Assembly (NCBI GenBank): GCA_022606135.1
Contig: JABYQN010000021.1
Location: forward strand, 40,605 to 104,604
Direction of reading: 5' to 3'
Length of the DNA stretch: 64,000 bases
Origin: Fomes fomentarius
Lineage: Eukaryota > Basidiomycota > Agaricomycetes > Polyporales > Polyporaceae
Shown here piece after piece: positions 12,699 to 64,000 of the stretch. Made by a program: the position numbers and the translations under genes. The notes under the pieces are model-generated. The model saw only the letters and a list, made by a program, of their open reading frames with translations, had not been told where the DNA came from and did not search any database. Numbering within the stretch: the first letter of the stretch is position 1; every line of letters begins with the position of its first letter.

Positions 12699-15600
12699 GA
12701 GTTGGTATGAGGAGAAGAGAGCAGGGGGGACGTCGGGAGTAGCATGGCAGGGACAGGGACTATTTAGGCGGAAGGAGGTGGGGATGCGCAAGGGACGGAC
12801 AGTCTTCTTCGCTTGCTGCTCAAGAAAGGCCTTTCGGAGTATGCCGAAGATCACATCTGACAGTCGGGTGTGGCCGAGGGCTGGCGATGACGCGGGCATC
12901 TCGGCTGCGATCTCTGTGGCCAAGCGCTCAAGGCAGCTGAAGCCGGGCTGAAGCTGAAGCCGAGCCTGAAAGTGGATTAAGATTGGCTGTAGCAGTCCAA
13001 GAACAGGCGATGGAGGATATAGAGAGGGCGATAGCAAGGACGTTACCGGACTGACCCCGAGCGGTATCACTTGTCGGCATCCATCCAACTCCGAGTCCTC
13101 CTTAGTCCCCAACCACCGTCTCATTCGTACGCGTGGCCTCGATGGCCTCTCAATGAGTGGCCCCCGCCTCATGTTGCCTCACGCGCCTCAACTCGTGAGT
13201 GGTTCATGCCACTCGCTTGTCTTCTTCTCGCATCCGCGCTCTCCCACAATCTAAGCATTGTTTCCCCGAAGAGCTCGTGTAACTGTGGTCTGGACCTTGT
13301 CACCTCTCGCCATCTCACCATACCATATCTGAATCAGGGGATCTAGTGCCCTCACTCGCCCAGCGCCGCCCCCATCACACGGCACAACCCGCGCCATCCG
13401 CATTCCTCCACTCTCATTCGTCCTTTGGGGCGGCAGACCACAAGCTCATGCACTCCTGAGGGTCCCTCTTTCCTTGACCGTATATCTATATCTCTTCCTC
13501 CGAAGACCGCTGACCTGGCACTGCACGCATTCTGCCGACTGCATCTGCATCCTGCCTATCCACACGGATCTTGCCACTCCTTCTCTTTCGTCACTAGCCC
13601 AAAAATTCCCCTGCTTCTCTCTCCCCGGTTTTCGCACGGCCCGTTCCTAGTAGAATGCCTGCTCTTAATGACGCTCACGGTGGGACGGACGACCTCGTTT
13701 TGCTCTTTCTTCGCGGGATGATCTGCCACCCAAATCCGCCCCGACGTAGCGGCAGATCGGGCCTTTGCGGAAGCGTACATTTGGCCTGCGACCAAGCTAC
13801 CGTTCACCCTTCCACCACCCTCCGTACTTTCCGTCACCTTCAGAGCTCGCTGCGCAGGGCCTTGGAAAGCTCATCCGACACTCTTGCAATCGAAACAAAC
13901 TCATCAAACTCATCATGCTCCTAGTACTTGATTTTGGCTTCGTGTGCTCACTTGCCCGTGCGCCGTATCATCTGGAGGCATGGCATCCGATCCGAGTAGA
14001 AGACTGGGAATATTGCTACACGCGATGCTGCTATGCTCTCCTACAGCACGCAATCTTCGCCGTTGGCCCGTAGTCTTCATCCCCGCAAGCCTATCCGACG
14101 TCTGCACTATACTGCTTGCGCTTACTAACGCGTGGTGCTGTGAGATAGTCACCCCACGACTGGCCGCAAATTTGGAGGCTCCTTGTCCACCTTCTCTAGG
14201 CGCCCATCATCTTCACCGTGTCACCGTGTCGCGCGGCGTTCACCCGATGTGTTTAGCATCCTAGTCATTGTCTCAGCTCCTGCAACATGGCCAAGTCGTG
14301 TGAACGGTCCTCGTGTTTTCCCTCATCTCTCTTCATCTCGCGATTCTCCGCCGCCCACGATGTACTCATAATGCTTGTGTGGGCTGCGGACGATGACAGT
14401 GCTCCGCTCATTATGAACATCACGGATGTCTATTCAGCACCATTCCGCCCTCGTCAAAGTCCCCCCGCATCATCTCGTGGCCCCCACGTTGTAACTTGTC
14501 ATTCGCGTACCGGGCTGCGGCCCAGACTCAACGCAACTCCGCCGTAGCAGTATCACGAGTCGATGCCAGGCGTTACATCATCCTCACCCTTCTGCGCCTC
14601 TCTCCGTCTCAACTCCAGTCTCCAGCCGAGCCGTGGCATCGTTGATTGCCACGACGACACTACATCCTCCCAGCTTGCAAGGTCTCTTCACTGCCGTCCC
14701 TTCGTTCGGCACAGTGTGCGCGACCCCCAGACCACCCTCATTCACAACACCCACGCCCACGCCCACGCACACAAATAACCACGTCCATCAAGCTCAGCCT
14801 CCCCCCATCGAGTCGCGTTCTCGCACTCATATATGCGGAAGTCGAGCTACTCTCCGTGCCTTCGGCTTTCGCTGTTCGCGCGTTCGTTCTGTGCCTTGCG
14901 CGACGTCGTTGTCGCCATCAAGTTCTCAGTACGTACACTTTCAGAGTGTGTTTACATATACCTCGAGCTTCGAAGGTGCTGCGAACATTCTCCGGGTATT
15001 GTCCCGTCGGCTTTCGCGCCCTCGACGGGGACCCTGTGCGTCCATGGCCCTCGGTTCGATCTCCACGGTGCCACGGTGGCCACGGCGCCACGGGTGCAAT
15101 TAGTCGTGTCGAGAAGTACTGGAACGCCGCGAGTTAGACGTGCCACGTGGTATAGTGCCGTTTTGCACGATGAGGCTTCCCGCTGCGTTCGTTCAGGGTT
15201 AACGTTATGCATGAAACGCTGGGTCTGGGCAAGTTGTGATCCGAGTGAGAAGCTCCCAGCTTACGTTGTTGGGGATTCGCGTGCGCAGCGCAGCGCAGGG
15301 GGGGAAGGGGGCGCAGCGTGAATCTTAACTCTCACTCTACGTATACATTCTATGTATTAGAGTCTCGCCCGCTAGGCCTACTTGCACATGGCCACCATAC
15401 CATTGAATGGTGCGCGATCCTCTGCCCTTGCTCTTGGCTTGGCAGTCAGGTTCGACTTGTGCCCCCGAACCCGAACCCGATGAACACGGTTCTATGTAAC
15501 ACAAACAACATCAAACCCAATTCAGTCAAACACGCGCGCGCGCAAGTGGTAAATCCCTCTCTCTCTCGATCCTGGTACGTAACATTTACTGCATCCGTCA

Positions 15601-16522
15601 GCGCCGGCCGTGCTGGGGTGCTTCCGGCTATGTCGGACTTTGCTTGCTTCTAGTGTGGAGTGGAGATCGTGGAGATTGCCCTTTGCGTGACTGGAGCTTG
15701 ACCGCCCCGGGGGCTGATCGGGCCCTTGCAGATTGTCTGAATACATTATGTAGAATCGTTTCCGTACATAGGCGATATCGGAGGTTGGGGTGGGGAGTGT
15801 GGAGCCGGGGCTGTGCCACCCGCTACTATAGAAGACCCTCGTATCTCTACGAGCTCGAGGTGTATGTACTTACATGCCTTGTCTGCCTACCATGTATTTT
15901 TGGGAGAACCATGTATTTTTGAAAGAACGTTCCGATCAGGCGACCCTGTGCGGTGATATCGGCCCTGAGTTGTTACGTTCTACTTACTTACATGTACTCA
16001 GATTCTCGTATGTAGGGTTGCGCGATGCCACGGACTTGTGCTCTGCGTCCCGGCGGGCAAGTTACTAAGTATGTACCGAGTTTGAATGTCCCTTAGCCAC
16101 TCTCCGATGACCTAAGTGCTCGTTCTGACTTCTTCTTATCTATGGGCAGTTGGCCTGGAACCTTCACTCATTTCAGATTGCGATATACTGGTGATCGCTA
16201 ATGGTGTTGATTGCGCCTGTGCTCACGATTTTGCTCTCAGATGCTCGGGGCTCGGGTAGTAAGGGCACCCATCCCCATCCTGGAGCGACCTGAAATATCA
16301 CAACACCTTGTTGAGTTGTTCACATCGAGACAAGTACAAGGATCAGTATACAGTTTGTATCGCTACAGATGGCCTGTGTTGTGCAAGGTTTAGCAAGTCG
16401 CAGATGTTCAAGCCACATCACATTTGCGGATCATGTTCAGAACATCGCGCTCCTCTTGAGAGAAGTGGTACTGATCCAGAAGAACTCTGTGATATCGCAG
16501 AGGCGCGCGTCAGCAATACCTT
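12699..16522. other. About 3.8 kb without a supported gene
   Basis: CT-rich on the plus strand between about 13.1 and 14.8 kb, with many overlapping frames and no recognisable domain. The part from 15.3 to 16.1 kb is AT-richer and has short pyrimidine and CG runs. The plus-strand frame 14833-15321 is fairly long but looks like random translation of GC-rich DNA. No transposase, reverse transcriptase or RNA gene seen. Confidence 0.5.
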
Positions 16523-48706: not shown

Positions 48707-49470
48707 TGGGACTGCTGGTGAGGTAGAGGTACAGAGGGGATGAAGAGCGATCAGAGCGGGGAGTAGAAAGAGACCGTCTATTGAAGATGGAGTGGGGTTT
48801 TACAGCAGTGGACTCGTCGTCGTCGGGAGACCGGGTACGCGAAGAAGTTCAGCGGAAGCCGGGGTTGATGTGTGGGGTGAGGATGGGCGGGCTCAATCGA
48901 TGGCGCAGGGGGGCGGATGCTAGTCGCGAGCGGGGCTCAGCGGTACTAGAGGAGAAAGAGATGTTTGAAAGGCGAAGGTAGCTTGCTTGGGAGGGTTGGG
49001 CGGATGAGGAGAAGCCGGCAAGGGTCGCGAGATCTGCAAACGCAAGCGATAAGGTGAGCTCGGGGAGAGCAAGGGCATTGGGAAGAAAGAGGACATACTC
49101 CAGGCGGTATCCTTGTGACGGCTTAGGGTTAGGCGGGGAGAAGAGAGCAAGGCGGGAGGCGGAAGAGGATGGAGGGCGACTTTCAAACAAGAACCATGCG
49201 ACGGCGAGAGGGCGAGCTCCAGCTGAGCCCATTTCCACCCTCCGTCCCATATATCTCCCCCTCGGCGTTCCCCGCAACCTTACCCCAATTAGGCTCCCCA
49301 TCAATTCCTGCCACTCCGTCTCCCGCTCTCCCTCCCCTCGCTCCTCGCCCTCTCCGACCCGGACACAATCCGTCTGCGTGCTGTGTTGGACCGTCGGGGC
49401 TGCCCACATTGCGCTGAATGGCGGAGGGAGCGAGGGGAGGGAGAGGGAACAGCCATCACACGATGTGTAC
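48707..49470. other. 5' flank of the bHLH gene
   Basis: GC-rich, with pyrimidine-rich runs on the minus strand close to the start codon. No gene recognised. Confidence 0.5.
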
Positions 49471-60741: not shown

Positions 60742-62648
60742 ATGGAGTCTTCGTTGAATGAGAGGTTGTCGAGACTGAGGTAATTGTAGACCATCGTCAC
60801 ACCCTAGAACCCACGTTGACCTTTCTCTGGACTGTGATGTAGCCGAGACCAGGTTAGTCCGCTCGCTGCAACTACGGAAACCCTGTATGCTTATCTGCAT
60901 TCAACCAGTTGCTCGTATATCACACCCGAGCACTAGACTTTGTCCAGGAAATATGTCACCGCATCAATGCCCTCCCATCCATCAATCGACTTCCCGTCGA
61001 ATTTCTCGTCGAGGTCATCAAGTACGCCACGCACTGCAAACGAACTTCGCTCCATGACACCATCCCACTCCGAAAAGTAGACATCTCTCCTCTTCTCACC
61101 CTCATCGCCATCACGCATGTCTGTCGCCGATGGAGAGATGTTGCCACTGGTACCCCGATGCTCTGGAATCGCTTCCGCTCCATACCGAACAATTCGCTGC
61201 TCGAGCTGTTCCTCGAACGATCCGGCAACGCACCGCTGACGGTCGGGGTCGTCGTGAAGAACAAAGGGAGGAAGGTGGTCCAGGGCGTGCTGGAGGCCTG
61301 CAGGCCCCGGCTCCAGACTCTCCACATTTTTGACACGCGGTCTTCATATACTCGGCATCCTCCGCTGCATCAGCGTCCTCTGCAGCTTCGCCTAGTCGAA
61401 CTGCTGTGCTGCACCATCATGTCCAAGTCCGAGCGTCGTGACAGGGATGCTTGGCCGTCGAACCCGTCGAACCCGTCGATGCCTGTTCTCTTCGGTGACA
61501 CGGTCTCAACGCTACGAGCATTGGCTATCGTGCCCGTCGCGTGGCTACCAGGCAATCACTTCTCGCATCTCACCCATCTCTATCTTTCTTTCTCCATGCA
61601 CTACGGTACCAGCCTCGTGGATCAGCTTCGTCGACTGCTCACGCTGCTGTCAAGGACACCGGGGCTGTCATACTTGCAGCTCAGAGACGTTGGCCAGGTA
61701 CGAGCGCCTTTCAGTTCCGACCCCACGTTCTCGCAGTCCTCTGAACCCAAACGCGTCGCGCTGTCACACTTGCGTTCTCTTATAATCGCGGAGAGTGGCT
61801 ATCGGATAACGCTCTCCTTCCTCGACTGTTTGGACTTACCCGGAAGCGTCCTTGTGCATCTCAGTGGTATGGACATCAAGCAGGGTTCCCCGTCGATTCG
61901 TATCCCTATTATCCCTCCCCTGATCCTCTCGCACTTGGAGATTTTCGTAGTCAAACTATCTCTGCATCTAGTAGCTGGTCCTTCAGACGTGTACAACTCA
62001 TCACGTCCCTTCCGCGCCGGGTTCTGGATGCAAGCGAAGATATACCAGGAAGGACAGGACCAGTGGGAACCATGGCCCCTCTCCCTACACAATGTGCTCC
62101 GTCCATCCTCCATCCGCACGCTGCATGTCTGCTTCCGGGACCCAGAGCAGTTTGCGGACATCCTCCCGCACATGTCACACCTCGTCGAGCTGGGCGTCCT
62201 CTTCTCCGATTCGAGCGTCGCCGTCTGGGAGCCTTGCATCAACCGCTTGTGTGCAGTTCTTAGGCGTAGGGAGAAAATATGCTGTCCTCGGCTGCGTGTC
62301 TTCTGCCTCGAGACACACGTCAACCCAGAGACCATGCCATGCTACTCCAAGATCACGAAAATGGCTGCTATGCGCATGCGTCGGGGTCATCCCTTCCAGC
62401 GCATTGCTATCCGCGCTGTGCGTCTGTGGGGGGGCCAGCGGGGAGTCGCTGCACTGTTCTATGGGGTGTTCTCGCGTCTGGGAGAGTATGTTGAAACCGT
62501 AGAGTACCGTGGAGCTGGAGACGAATCGCTCTGTCCGTTTAGCATGCATAGGAGATGGGAGGCTGCAGATGCGGATGCGAGTAAGTATTGGGATGTGGAG
62601 CCGTCGGAACGACTTGAACAGCAGTTCTCCCTCCCTACAGGTATTTGA
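60742..62648 (+). CDS. F-box protein, last gene before the telomere
   Basis: Three exons, 60742..60779 (38 nt), 60843..60852 (10 nt) and 60909..62648, give 595 aa. The start reads MESSLNERLSRLSRDQLLVY, then a helix HTRALDFVQEICHRINALPS and an F-box: INRLPVEFLVEVIKYATHC, LIAITHVCRRWRDVATGTPM, LWNRF. Leucine-rich stretches follow (LRALAIVPVAWLPGNHFSHL, THLYLSFSM, SSIRTLHVCFRD, MSHLVELGVLF). The N-terminal helix plus F-box is a very common agaricomycete family, expected to be SCF receptors. Both small introns (63 and 56 bp) have GT-AG ends. If the micro-exon is not used, an ATG at 60952 could still give an F-box protein. No lesion seen, although it is only 1.2 kb from the telomere repeat. Confidence 0.8.
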
Positions 62649-62866: not shown

Positions 62867-62882
62867 AGGGTTAGGGTTAGGG
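62867..62882 (+). repeat. Interstitial telomere repeat
   Basis: AGGGTTAGGGTTAGGG, in the same orientation as the terminal telomere, lies 984 bp inside it. The sequence changes at once to GC-rich DNA holding a ribozyme motif. It looks like the scar of a former chromosome end. Confidence 0.85.
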
Positions 62883-62947
62883 TGGGCGGAGCGAGCGAGA
62901 CCGAGCGAAGCGAGGTCGAGTGAGCGACGCTTGTGGTGGGCGTTGCG

Positions 62948-63023
62948 AAACAGAACAACGGGTGTTGGGAAAATCCCAGCACCAACCCGTTTCGGCTTAT
63001 ATACGCCTCATCAGGTTCTGCTT
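62948..63023 (-). ncRNA. Hammerhead ribozyme, type I
   Basis: Read on the minus strand: helix I 5' arm AAGCAGAAC, core CTGATGA, stem II GGC with loop GTATATAA and GCC, core GAAA, helix III CGGG, an internal hairpin TGGGA-TTT-TCCCA, then CCCG, the cleavage-site TT, and helix I 3' arm GTTCTGTTT. Every invariant base of the hammerhead core is present. Helix I has nine pairs including one G-U, helix II three, helix III four plus the A15.1-U16.1 pair. The predicted cut is after the U complementary to 62957. With helix I open it is a type I ribozyme. The site triplet GUU is allowed by the NUH rule but is not the fastest. Confidence 0.85.
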
Positions 63024-63343
63024 AGTAATAATTACCGTTTTGGGACTTCAACGTCGATGTGGCGTGCTATCTAGGCGCGCGGGTGACGTCGTTACGTCTC
63101 GTGACTGCTTACTTGGCGGAGCCGGCCCGGGCATGACAAGCGCCGGGCGGAGGTCGGAACGAAGTGTGGCGCCGCCTCGGCGCTACGCATTGTTCCGATG
63201 CTTACATAAGGCGCTAGACCCTGGTCCAGACTCTCGTCACGTGATGGGTCTGGGCTTTGGATGCGTGCGCACGAGGTCACGTGTCTTAAACTTAGCCGCC
63301 GAACACCTAACAGTATGAAGCCGGCATTATGCCCCATAATGCT

Positions 63344-63690
63344 GGCCCTCACCTGGTCCTCAGGTGGCCTTTTCCATTTTGTGACTGAACCGTCAACTGT
63401 GGCACTGAGGGCCAGTGGGGACTTGTTTAGAGGTCATCAAGGGCTTTCTGACGATATAGGTTATGTGGCTGTGCGGTGCGATTCCACCAAGATAGCCTGG
63501 CCCTCAGCTGGTCCTCAGCTGGCCTTTTCCATTTTGTGACTGAACCATTAACTGTGGCACTGAGGGCAAGGGGAGACTTTTATAGAGGGAATCAAGAGCT
63601 TTCCAACGGTATAGGTTATGTGGCTGTACAGTATGATTCCGCTGAGTTATGTTTGCCCTCACCTTGCCCTCACCTTGCCTTTTCTAATTT
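63344..63690. repeat. Tandem repeat, 155-bp unit, two and a part copies
   Basis: Units start at 63344, 63499 and 63654 (the last partial). Each opens with a doubled CCCTCA(C/G)CTGGTCCTCAG-like motif, then CTTTTCCATTTTGTGACTGA, and holds ATAGGTTATGTGGCTGT. The second unit has several substitutions against the first, so the array is not young. It lies between the ribozyme and the telomere. Confidence 0.85.
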
Positions 63691-63713
63691 CGGAGCACTT
63701 AAAAGCGGGAAAG

Positions 63714-63748
63714 GGCGCTAAATATGGCAGGCTGCCAGATTTGGCGCT
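63714..63748. repeat. Imperfect palindrome near the telomere
   Basis: Arms 63714-63730 and 63732-63748 match at 14 of 17 positions with a one-base centre (GGCGCTAAATATGGCAG against CTGCCAGATTTGGCGCT). It is placed between the tandem repeats and the telomere. Confidence 0.6.
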
Positions 63749-63866
63749 GAAAAAGGGAAAAAAGCGCCCAAAAGGTCGGGTCACGTAAATTTTGACTTTT
63801 GTGGTTTTTGTAGCCATGGTCAGTACGATTCTAATGGTGGTAGTAAGAAGGAATAGTGATGATTAG

Positions 63867-64000
63867 TTAGGGTTAGGGTTAGGGTTAGGGTTAGGGTTAG
63901 GGTTAGGGTTAGGGTTAGGGTTAGGGTTAGGGTTAGGGTTAGGGTTAGGGTTAGGGTTAGGGTTAGGGTTAGGGTTAGGGTTAGGGTTAGGGTTAGGGTT
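63867..64000 (+). repeat. Telomere, (TTAGGG)n
   Basis: 134 bp of perfect TTAGGG, about 22 units, running off the right edge. The G-rich strand points outward, so this is a right chromosome end. The window ends inside the repeat, so its full length is unknown. Confidence 0.99.

Follow-up and report, generated by a model that had tools for sequence, protein, structure and literature searches.

A type I hammerhead ribozyme motif between an internal telomeric tract and the telomere at a chromosome end of Fomes fomentarius

Described ribozyme-bearing elements and the Fomes chromosome end

Type I hammerhead ribozymes have been reported in Penelope-like elements and in Terminons (PMC6431247, PMC7761336), and telomere-attached retroelements with hammerheads have been described in rotifers (PMC6431247). 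For Terminons, a hammerhead beside C-rich repeats has been proposed to free a 3′ end that can pair with the G-overhang (PMC6431247, PMC12477314). Penelope-like elements have also been reported near the chromosome ends of Agaricus bisporus (PMC7473861). In vitro work on one Penelope element found insertion unaffected by mutations in the hammerhead and cleavage dependent on the element's protein, and no RNA-seq ends were found at the cleavage site (PMC11167929); the role of these ribozymes has been termed a mystery (PMC7761336).

The window analysed here is a 64,000-nt stretch of contig C21 (C21:40605-104604) from the polypore basidiomycete Fomes fomentarius, whose assembly comprises 40.9 Mb in 24 contigs, and it ends in telomere repeats. 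Going outward, an F-box-type gene is followed by a flank of ~0.2 kb, a GGGTTAGGGTTAGGGT tract, a ribozyme-bearing unit, a second element and the terminal TTAGGG repeats (Table 1). The initial annotation had proposed, for a basidiomycete, a complete type I hammerhead core on the minus strand at 62948-63023, adjoining interstitial TTAGGG and lying 0.85 kb from the telomere; the host, the exact coordinates, the adjoining tract, 16 nt long, and the distance were all borne out. It had also treated 62867-63866 as a single captured sequence. We rejected the reading of this whole interval as one captured RNA copy, as its distal 560 bp belong to a helicase-type subtelomeric element with copies elsewhere. 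In literature searches for hammerheads at the chromosome ends of fungi or basidiomycetes, the titles and abstract openings showed no case of this kind.

Table 1. Positions, in the window, of the features at the chromosome end and of the parts of the predicted ribozyme.
Feature	Position	Strand	Description
F-box-type gene	60909-62648		
Internal telomeric tract GGGTTAGGGTTAGGGT	62868-62883	+	16 nt
Ribozyme-bearing unit	62884-63305	sense strand minus	~422 bp
Type I hammerhead motif	62948-63023	minus	
Stem I	63023-63015/62956-62948	minus	AAGCAGAAC/GUUCUGUUU, 9 bp, one G-U
Core CUGAUGA	63014-63008	minus	
Catalytic G8	63009	minus	A in the C15 copy
Stem II	63007-63005/62996-62994	minus	GGC/GCC, 3 bp, 8-nt loop
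GAAA	62993-62990	minus	
Stem III	62990-62985/62963-62958	minus	ACGGGU/ACCCGU, 6 bp
Distal hairpin on stem III	62978-62974/62970-62966	minus	5 bp
U16.1 and U17	after stem III	minus	part of GUU triplet
Predicted cleavage position	between 62957 and 62956	minus	after U17 of GUU; predicted from the motif alone
Subtelomeric helicase-type element, left end	63306-63869	+	cut off by telomere
Terminal TTAGGG repeats	63870-64000	+	TTA at 63867-63869 common to element and repeats

Architecture and rarity of the hammerhead motif

Read on the minus strand from 63023 to 62948, the motif is a full hammerhead, with three stems, CUGAUGA, GAAA and a GUU triplet in type I order. U17 and the predicted cleavage position are placed by hammerhead numbering. 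Cervera and De la Pena (2014) are said to have found that the hammerheads of fungal Penelope elements have a stable helix III. Helix III of the Fomes unit consists of 6 bp plus a 5-bp hairpin, whereas the minimal variants described in reviews lack helix III (PMC6155905, PMC7761336). Because stem I is without a bulge or internal loop, the usual tertiary contact is not evident; Penelope hammerheads have also been described as lacking this contact (PMC6155905, PMC7761336).

We composed a three-stem descriptor (6/3/5 pairs) after the motif had been seen; it matches once on the two strands of the 64-kb window, at this motif alone. One strand of 40 Mb of Markov random sequence yielded no matches at 6/3/5, 5/3/4 or 4/3/4 pairs, and one strand of 60 Mb yielded six at 2/3/4, one at 3/3/4 and none at 4/3/4 or 5/3/5. 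With random-sequence counts this small, the expectation extrapolated to the observed 9/3/6 pairs is ~2e-6 per window and ~1e-3 per genome, figures that carry the post hoc choice of descriptor. As a control, a looser setting of the descriptor gave a type I call in 33 of 58 viral stretches holding a hammerhead-like core. Applied to 83 overlapping stretches of the Fomes genome (the window and 82 loci, 0.30 Mb), the loose setting found the unit on C21 and a second copy on contig C15 only.

Curated models did not recover the motif. At the gathering score, Rfam gave no matches in the window, and the sole Rfam signal near the motif was a shifted match to RF00008 (15.6 bits). A hammerhead covariance scan of the genome, put forward in the initial annotation as a check, lent no support either: RF00163 gave two matches (73 of 7172 candidates scored), neither of them over the cut-off or at this site. 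Sub-cut-off matches to RF00163 were also present in 11 of 14 control genomes. The match at C3:394361 (22.2 bits), which has a CUGAGGA core and apparently no GAAA in place, was taken as chance; the other is at C3:311820 (19.4 bits).

For the isolated 81-nt RNA, the best fold (-28.4 kcal/mol) is not a hammerhead; the strict hammerhead structure reaches -25.5 kcal/mol, and the best fold with the hammerhead pairs forced -28.0 kcal/mol. Stem II pairs with a probability of 0.99, stem I with 0.38-0.99 and the base of stem III with 0.18-0.29. Compared with shuffled sequences, the 80-nt motif folds better (z = -3.17), and its best fold is again not the hammerhead.

A chance resemblance, in which stems and core would be accidental, could draw on the absence of a curated model that passes, on the GUU triplet, on a stem I without a bulge or loop for tertiary contact, and on the position of the only motif change between the two copies, which hits the catalytic base. 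Set against the extrapolated expectation per genome for a motif this complete, we regard such an accident as very improbable. The orphan hammerhead at this chromosome end is, judging from its sequence, probably real.

The unit, its second copy and their junctions

DNA searches of the genome identified one further copy of the unit, which is subtelomeric and begins at C15:791048 (L039:3749-4186). Patterns for the left end of the unit and for the ribozyme core, allowing up to 3 mismatches, were likewise found in the genome on C15 and C21 alone. With DNA and pattern searches returning these two copies only, a genome-wide dispersed family was rejected. Each copy is no more than 2.3 kb away from a contig end bearing telomere repeats. 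Over the unit, 3 substitutions and 12 inserted bases separate them, and the neighbouring element has 1 more substitution; because the differences are so few, the spread of the unit is apparently recent. Across the motif stretch, 80 of 81 positions are identical and the sole change is G8 to A. The two copies offer no stem variation from which covariation could be scored, and the core is not conserved at G8. In a Penelope hammerhead, G8C or C3G alone abolishes activity (PMC11167929); based on the effect of G8C, the C15 copy is expected to be inactive.

The unit has a GC content of 59%, and CpG is not depleted. It contains no direct or inverted repeats of at least 14 nt, and no tandem or LTR-type duplication with a hammerhead per repeat; a single motif is present. 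Its folding does not stand out from that of shuffled sequences (z = -1.01; equalled or bettered by 16 of 100 shuffles), its short ORFs (up to 132 aa) are taken as chance, and a phage search with the unit gave no match. A short element driven by Pol III was also considered; A and B boxes on the ribozyme strand match only with one mismatch. Like metazoan non-LTR retrozymes, the unit is short and non-coding, carries a type I hammerhead and would rely on a reverse transcriptase provided in trans (PMC7761336). Unlike those retrozymes, it is fungal, telomere-adjacent and not tandem, with two copies found, and its GC content contrasts with values below 50% in animal retrozymes (PMC7761336).

On the sense strand of the unit, the 3′ side (CCGCCC, then ACCC) adjoins the TTAGGG tract, and the 5′ side adjoins the CCTAACA element. 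The arrangement resembles that of Terminons in the hammerhead near the RNA 3′ end, the C-rich 3′ end against G-rich repeats, and the orientation (PMC6431247). Unlike Terminons, the Fomes unit has no linked reverse transcriptase or other ORF and no (ACACCC)n-type repeat, and 73 nt separate the predicted cleavage site from the telomere junction, whereas in Terminons the two are immediately adjacent.

Within the window, GGGTTAGGGTTAGGGT at 62868-62883 is the sole exact non-terminal copy on either strand, and we read this internal tract as a former healed chromosome end. A second short TTAGGGTTAGG is present at 49123-49133, away from the end, and may be chance. The C15 unit copy likewise has, at its left end, the last GGGT of the tract (62880-62883); it adjoins not TTAGGG but another repeat, truncated at GGGTGG. 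Four other distinct copies of this C15 repeat (two on C8, one each on C3 and C17) continue with ATTGTTACTATGG; at the truncation point, 3 of these 4 copies have GGGTGG and one has GGGTAG. The flanking repeat itself (L039:2950-3754) is GC-rich, spans at least 0.8 kb and contains degenerate units; its copies are ~95% identical to one another. The initial annotation proposed looking for the same TTAGGG-ribozyme junction at other chromosome ends; the only other copy is subtelomeric with a non-TTAGGG junction and a mutated core.

The text common to the two copies, GGGTGGGCGG, starts within the telomere tract on C21 versus within the repeat on C15. Two histories fit this arrangement. The same RNA 3′ end may have been added twice, to two G-rich ends; alternatively, it may have been added once, to the telomere tract, and the unit then copied to C15 through microhomology. 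This latter history needs fewer events, because the right junction is also identical in both copies. The GGGT overlap is short and does not independently attest priming.

At the right junction, both unit copies stop at the same base, ...CCGAACA|CCTAACA. The sequence that starts at 63306, CCTAACA.TATGAAGCCGGCATTATGCCCCATAATGC, marks exactly where a subtelomeric family has its left end; in the window, the element reads CCTAACA...GGCATTATGCCCCATAATGC and continues into ~155-bp tandem repeats. The family begins with a telomere-like left end (CCTAACAC), followed by a palindrome, and comprises several subfamilies. Beyond the window, it is present on C1, C4, C8, C10, C11, C15, C17 and C19 (L001, L039-L043, L050-L070, L148). 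Using an exact CCTAACA[C/G]TATG search, we identified 16 distinct copies in the loci examined, 15 of them on the + strand, with 15 left flanks; this count leaves out a C4 copy with the one-base variant CACTAACACTATG. Only one left flank is common to two element copies: on C15 and C21 alike, it is the ribozyme unit. On C17 (L042:2312), the CCTAACAC element directly follows AAGAAGAAGAAGGAAA in what is apparently the interrupted end of a coding sequence. Genome-wide, TTAGGGTTAGGGTTAGGG was found 183 times on the + strand and never as its reverse complement; the places among the matches listed are right contig ends.

The C4 copy of the element starts 8.4 kb from the contig end. Two of its ORFs, which run towards the telomere, scored over the Pfam cut-offs for DEAD (58.0 bits) and Helicase_C (38.7 bits); two other ORFs of this copy scanned against Pfam gave no family. 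The left end of the window element is common to copies that carry helicase ORFs towards the telomere, and we place 63306-63869, from its sequence, beside the telomere-linked helicase elements as a putative relative. The C15 copy of the element carries an ORF with an OrsD domain. Likeness to TLH (telomere-linked RecQ-type helicase) elements is limited to this part of the locus, separate from the ribozyme unit, and no ribozyme motif was found in the helicase-element copies examined. The MoTeR elements of Magnaporthe are telomeric retrotransposons grouped with the FoTeR elements of Fusarium. FoTeR share with the Fomes locus a fungal chromosome-end setting, telomere-linked helicases and internal telomere repeats; unlike the Fomes unit, they encode their own reverse transcriptase (PMC12857005). 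The word ribozyme is absent from the main text of that paper (PMC12857005). Telomere-linked helicases have also been reported in basidiomycete subtelomeres (PMC7473861).

The window and C15 carry different subfamilies of the element; therefore, the distal arms were exchanged or acquired separately. Segments that are 95-96% identical are present on the subtelomeres of C11, C17 and C19. Subtelomeres of this genome have plainly exchanged DNA, and such exchange could explain both junctions. On this view the unit would be a piece of subtelomeric DNA with a hammerhead in it; break-induced replication, or end joining at G-rich microhomology, would have brought it to the TTAGGG tract or away from it, with no reverse transcription at the junction. 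This account is a realistic possibility, if one to which we give distinctly less than an even chance. Further points in its favour are that the unit ends are common to both copies while the proximal flanks differ (TTAGGG versus repeat), that the distal flanks belong to two subfamilies, and that GGGTGG lies at the same place in most other copies of the C15 repeat. It leaves unexplained, however, both the complete ribozyme motif in the unit and the coincidence of the unit's left end with a telomeric tract.

Candidate enzymes and the origin of the unit

Using the RVT_1 profile, we identified 92 matches in the genome. None was near either unit copy; on C21 the only match is at 15186-15788, and the last 94 kb of C15 has none. 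Eleven matches, picked for an unusual span or low score, were translated and read by eye, and they comprised one Ngaro/DIRS, seven LINE and three Ty3-type sequences. A weak match at C2:3823335 was set aside as a Penelope enzyme since it reads as LINE. Weak-RVT_1 ORFs of 763 aa were also dropped as candidates; the one on C12 reads as a DIRS/Ngaro-type protein, and others are on C6 and C3. Four Penelope proteins score just 30-44 bits on RVT_1, so a decayed or intron-split Penelope enzyme could escape this profile.

We also used an animal-type Penelope consensus as a query. In a database search it gave 5611 matches; among the 120 listed, most carry PF00078, PF28514 and PF26215, with animals as the organisms named. 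In the Fomes genome, the query matched one place, C4:974128-974298 (E = 0.58), inside the telomerase gene region. This match spans GIPQGSVLSAVLCSFFYGDLE, presumably a telomerase-type motif, ~1 kb past the telomerase RNA-binding domain through which the host telomerase gene (C4:972629-974298) was located; the query thus touches the reverse transcriptase part of that gene weakly. A second Penelope protein query gave no matches in the assembly, a result that, without a positive genome, says nothing alone. A Penelope-type reverse transcriptase was therefore not detected by searches of limited sensitivity, in which the animal query is maybe distant from fungal families and assembly gaps are possible.

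The initial annotation had related the sequence to endonuclease-lacking Penelope-like elements. The unit could be the 3′ end of such an element proper, truncated upstream, with the full element lost, diverged or unassembled. The host group, the type of ribozyme, its location and its orientation all suit that origin. A 3′ end on telomeric repeats, a trait of Penelope-like elements and Terminons, is present in the window copy and absent in the C15 copy. However, our searches placed a Penelope reverse transcriptase beside neither copy; RVT_1 is absent near both, and variable 5′ truncation is not seen, as both copies (n = 2) have the same upstream boundary. We consider this origin unlikely.

The reading we favour, tentatively and with somewhat under even confidence, is that the unit is a copy, non-autonomous or truncated, of a retroelement with a ribozyme (Penelope/Terminon or retrozyme kind) and was joined to a chromosome end that had been healed with telomere repeats. 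The strand and junction of the unit and its ribozyme fit the copying of an RNA to the end of a chromosome, which is how Terminons are proposed to attach; of the end-directed reverse transcription suggested in the initial annotation, the strand and the junction are thus supported. The minus-strand motif fits end-primed copying, because priming from a G-rich 3′ end requires a centromere-ward RNA sense. The unit adjoins internal TTAGGG, both copies are subtelomeric, and the motif is far above chance expectation under a post hoc descriptor. Several observations weigh against this retroelement origin: no Penelope reverse transcriptase was found, only two copies are present and one has G8 changed, the C15 junction is non-telomeric, the unit lacks repeats of at least 14 nt and any excess of folding, and Rfam gives no support. 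DNA exchange between subtelomeres is a close rival to it.

Under the retroelement origin, the chromosome would have broken ~0.2 kb past the F-box gene and been healed with TTAGGG, as the junction suggests. An RNA with a hammerhead in its 3′ region, ending in ...CCGCCCACCC, may then have served as template for a reverse transcriptase acting in trans and primed from the G-rich 3′ end, which would leave the unit in minus-strand orientation. In the RNA, the predicted hammerhead cut would fall 73 nt before the junction. A helicase-type subtelomeric element would later have joined the unit, and the end would have broken again and been re-healed by TTAGGG; both of these junctions are present in the window, and their order is conjectural. 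The C15 copy would most likely derive from copying between subtelomeres. The ribozyme step need not matter for insertion, because Penelope hammerhead mutants were without effect on it (PMC11167929). As to the repeated end-extension envisaged in the initial annotation, neither a copy linked to a reverse transcriptase nor a second TTAGGG junction was found in these searches, which in part counts against it.

A more specific proposal, which we hold to be improbable, is that a protein-less RNA of ~0.4 kb, with a hammerhead and a CCACCC 3′ end, is copied in trans onto telomeres or other G-rich ends, possibly by the host telomerase; telomerase is considered here because no Penelope-type enzyme was detected in the genome. 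Ribozyme-bearing, telomere-attached retroelements are already known, and the Fomes unit is set apart from them by the missing enzyme. If the unit is enzyme-less, it would offer a way to test if a C-rich tail together with a ribozyme suffices for end-copying in trans. If it is a mere relic, it would still preserve, layer upon layer, how one chromosome end was healed, extended by an addition and healed again.
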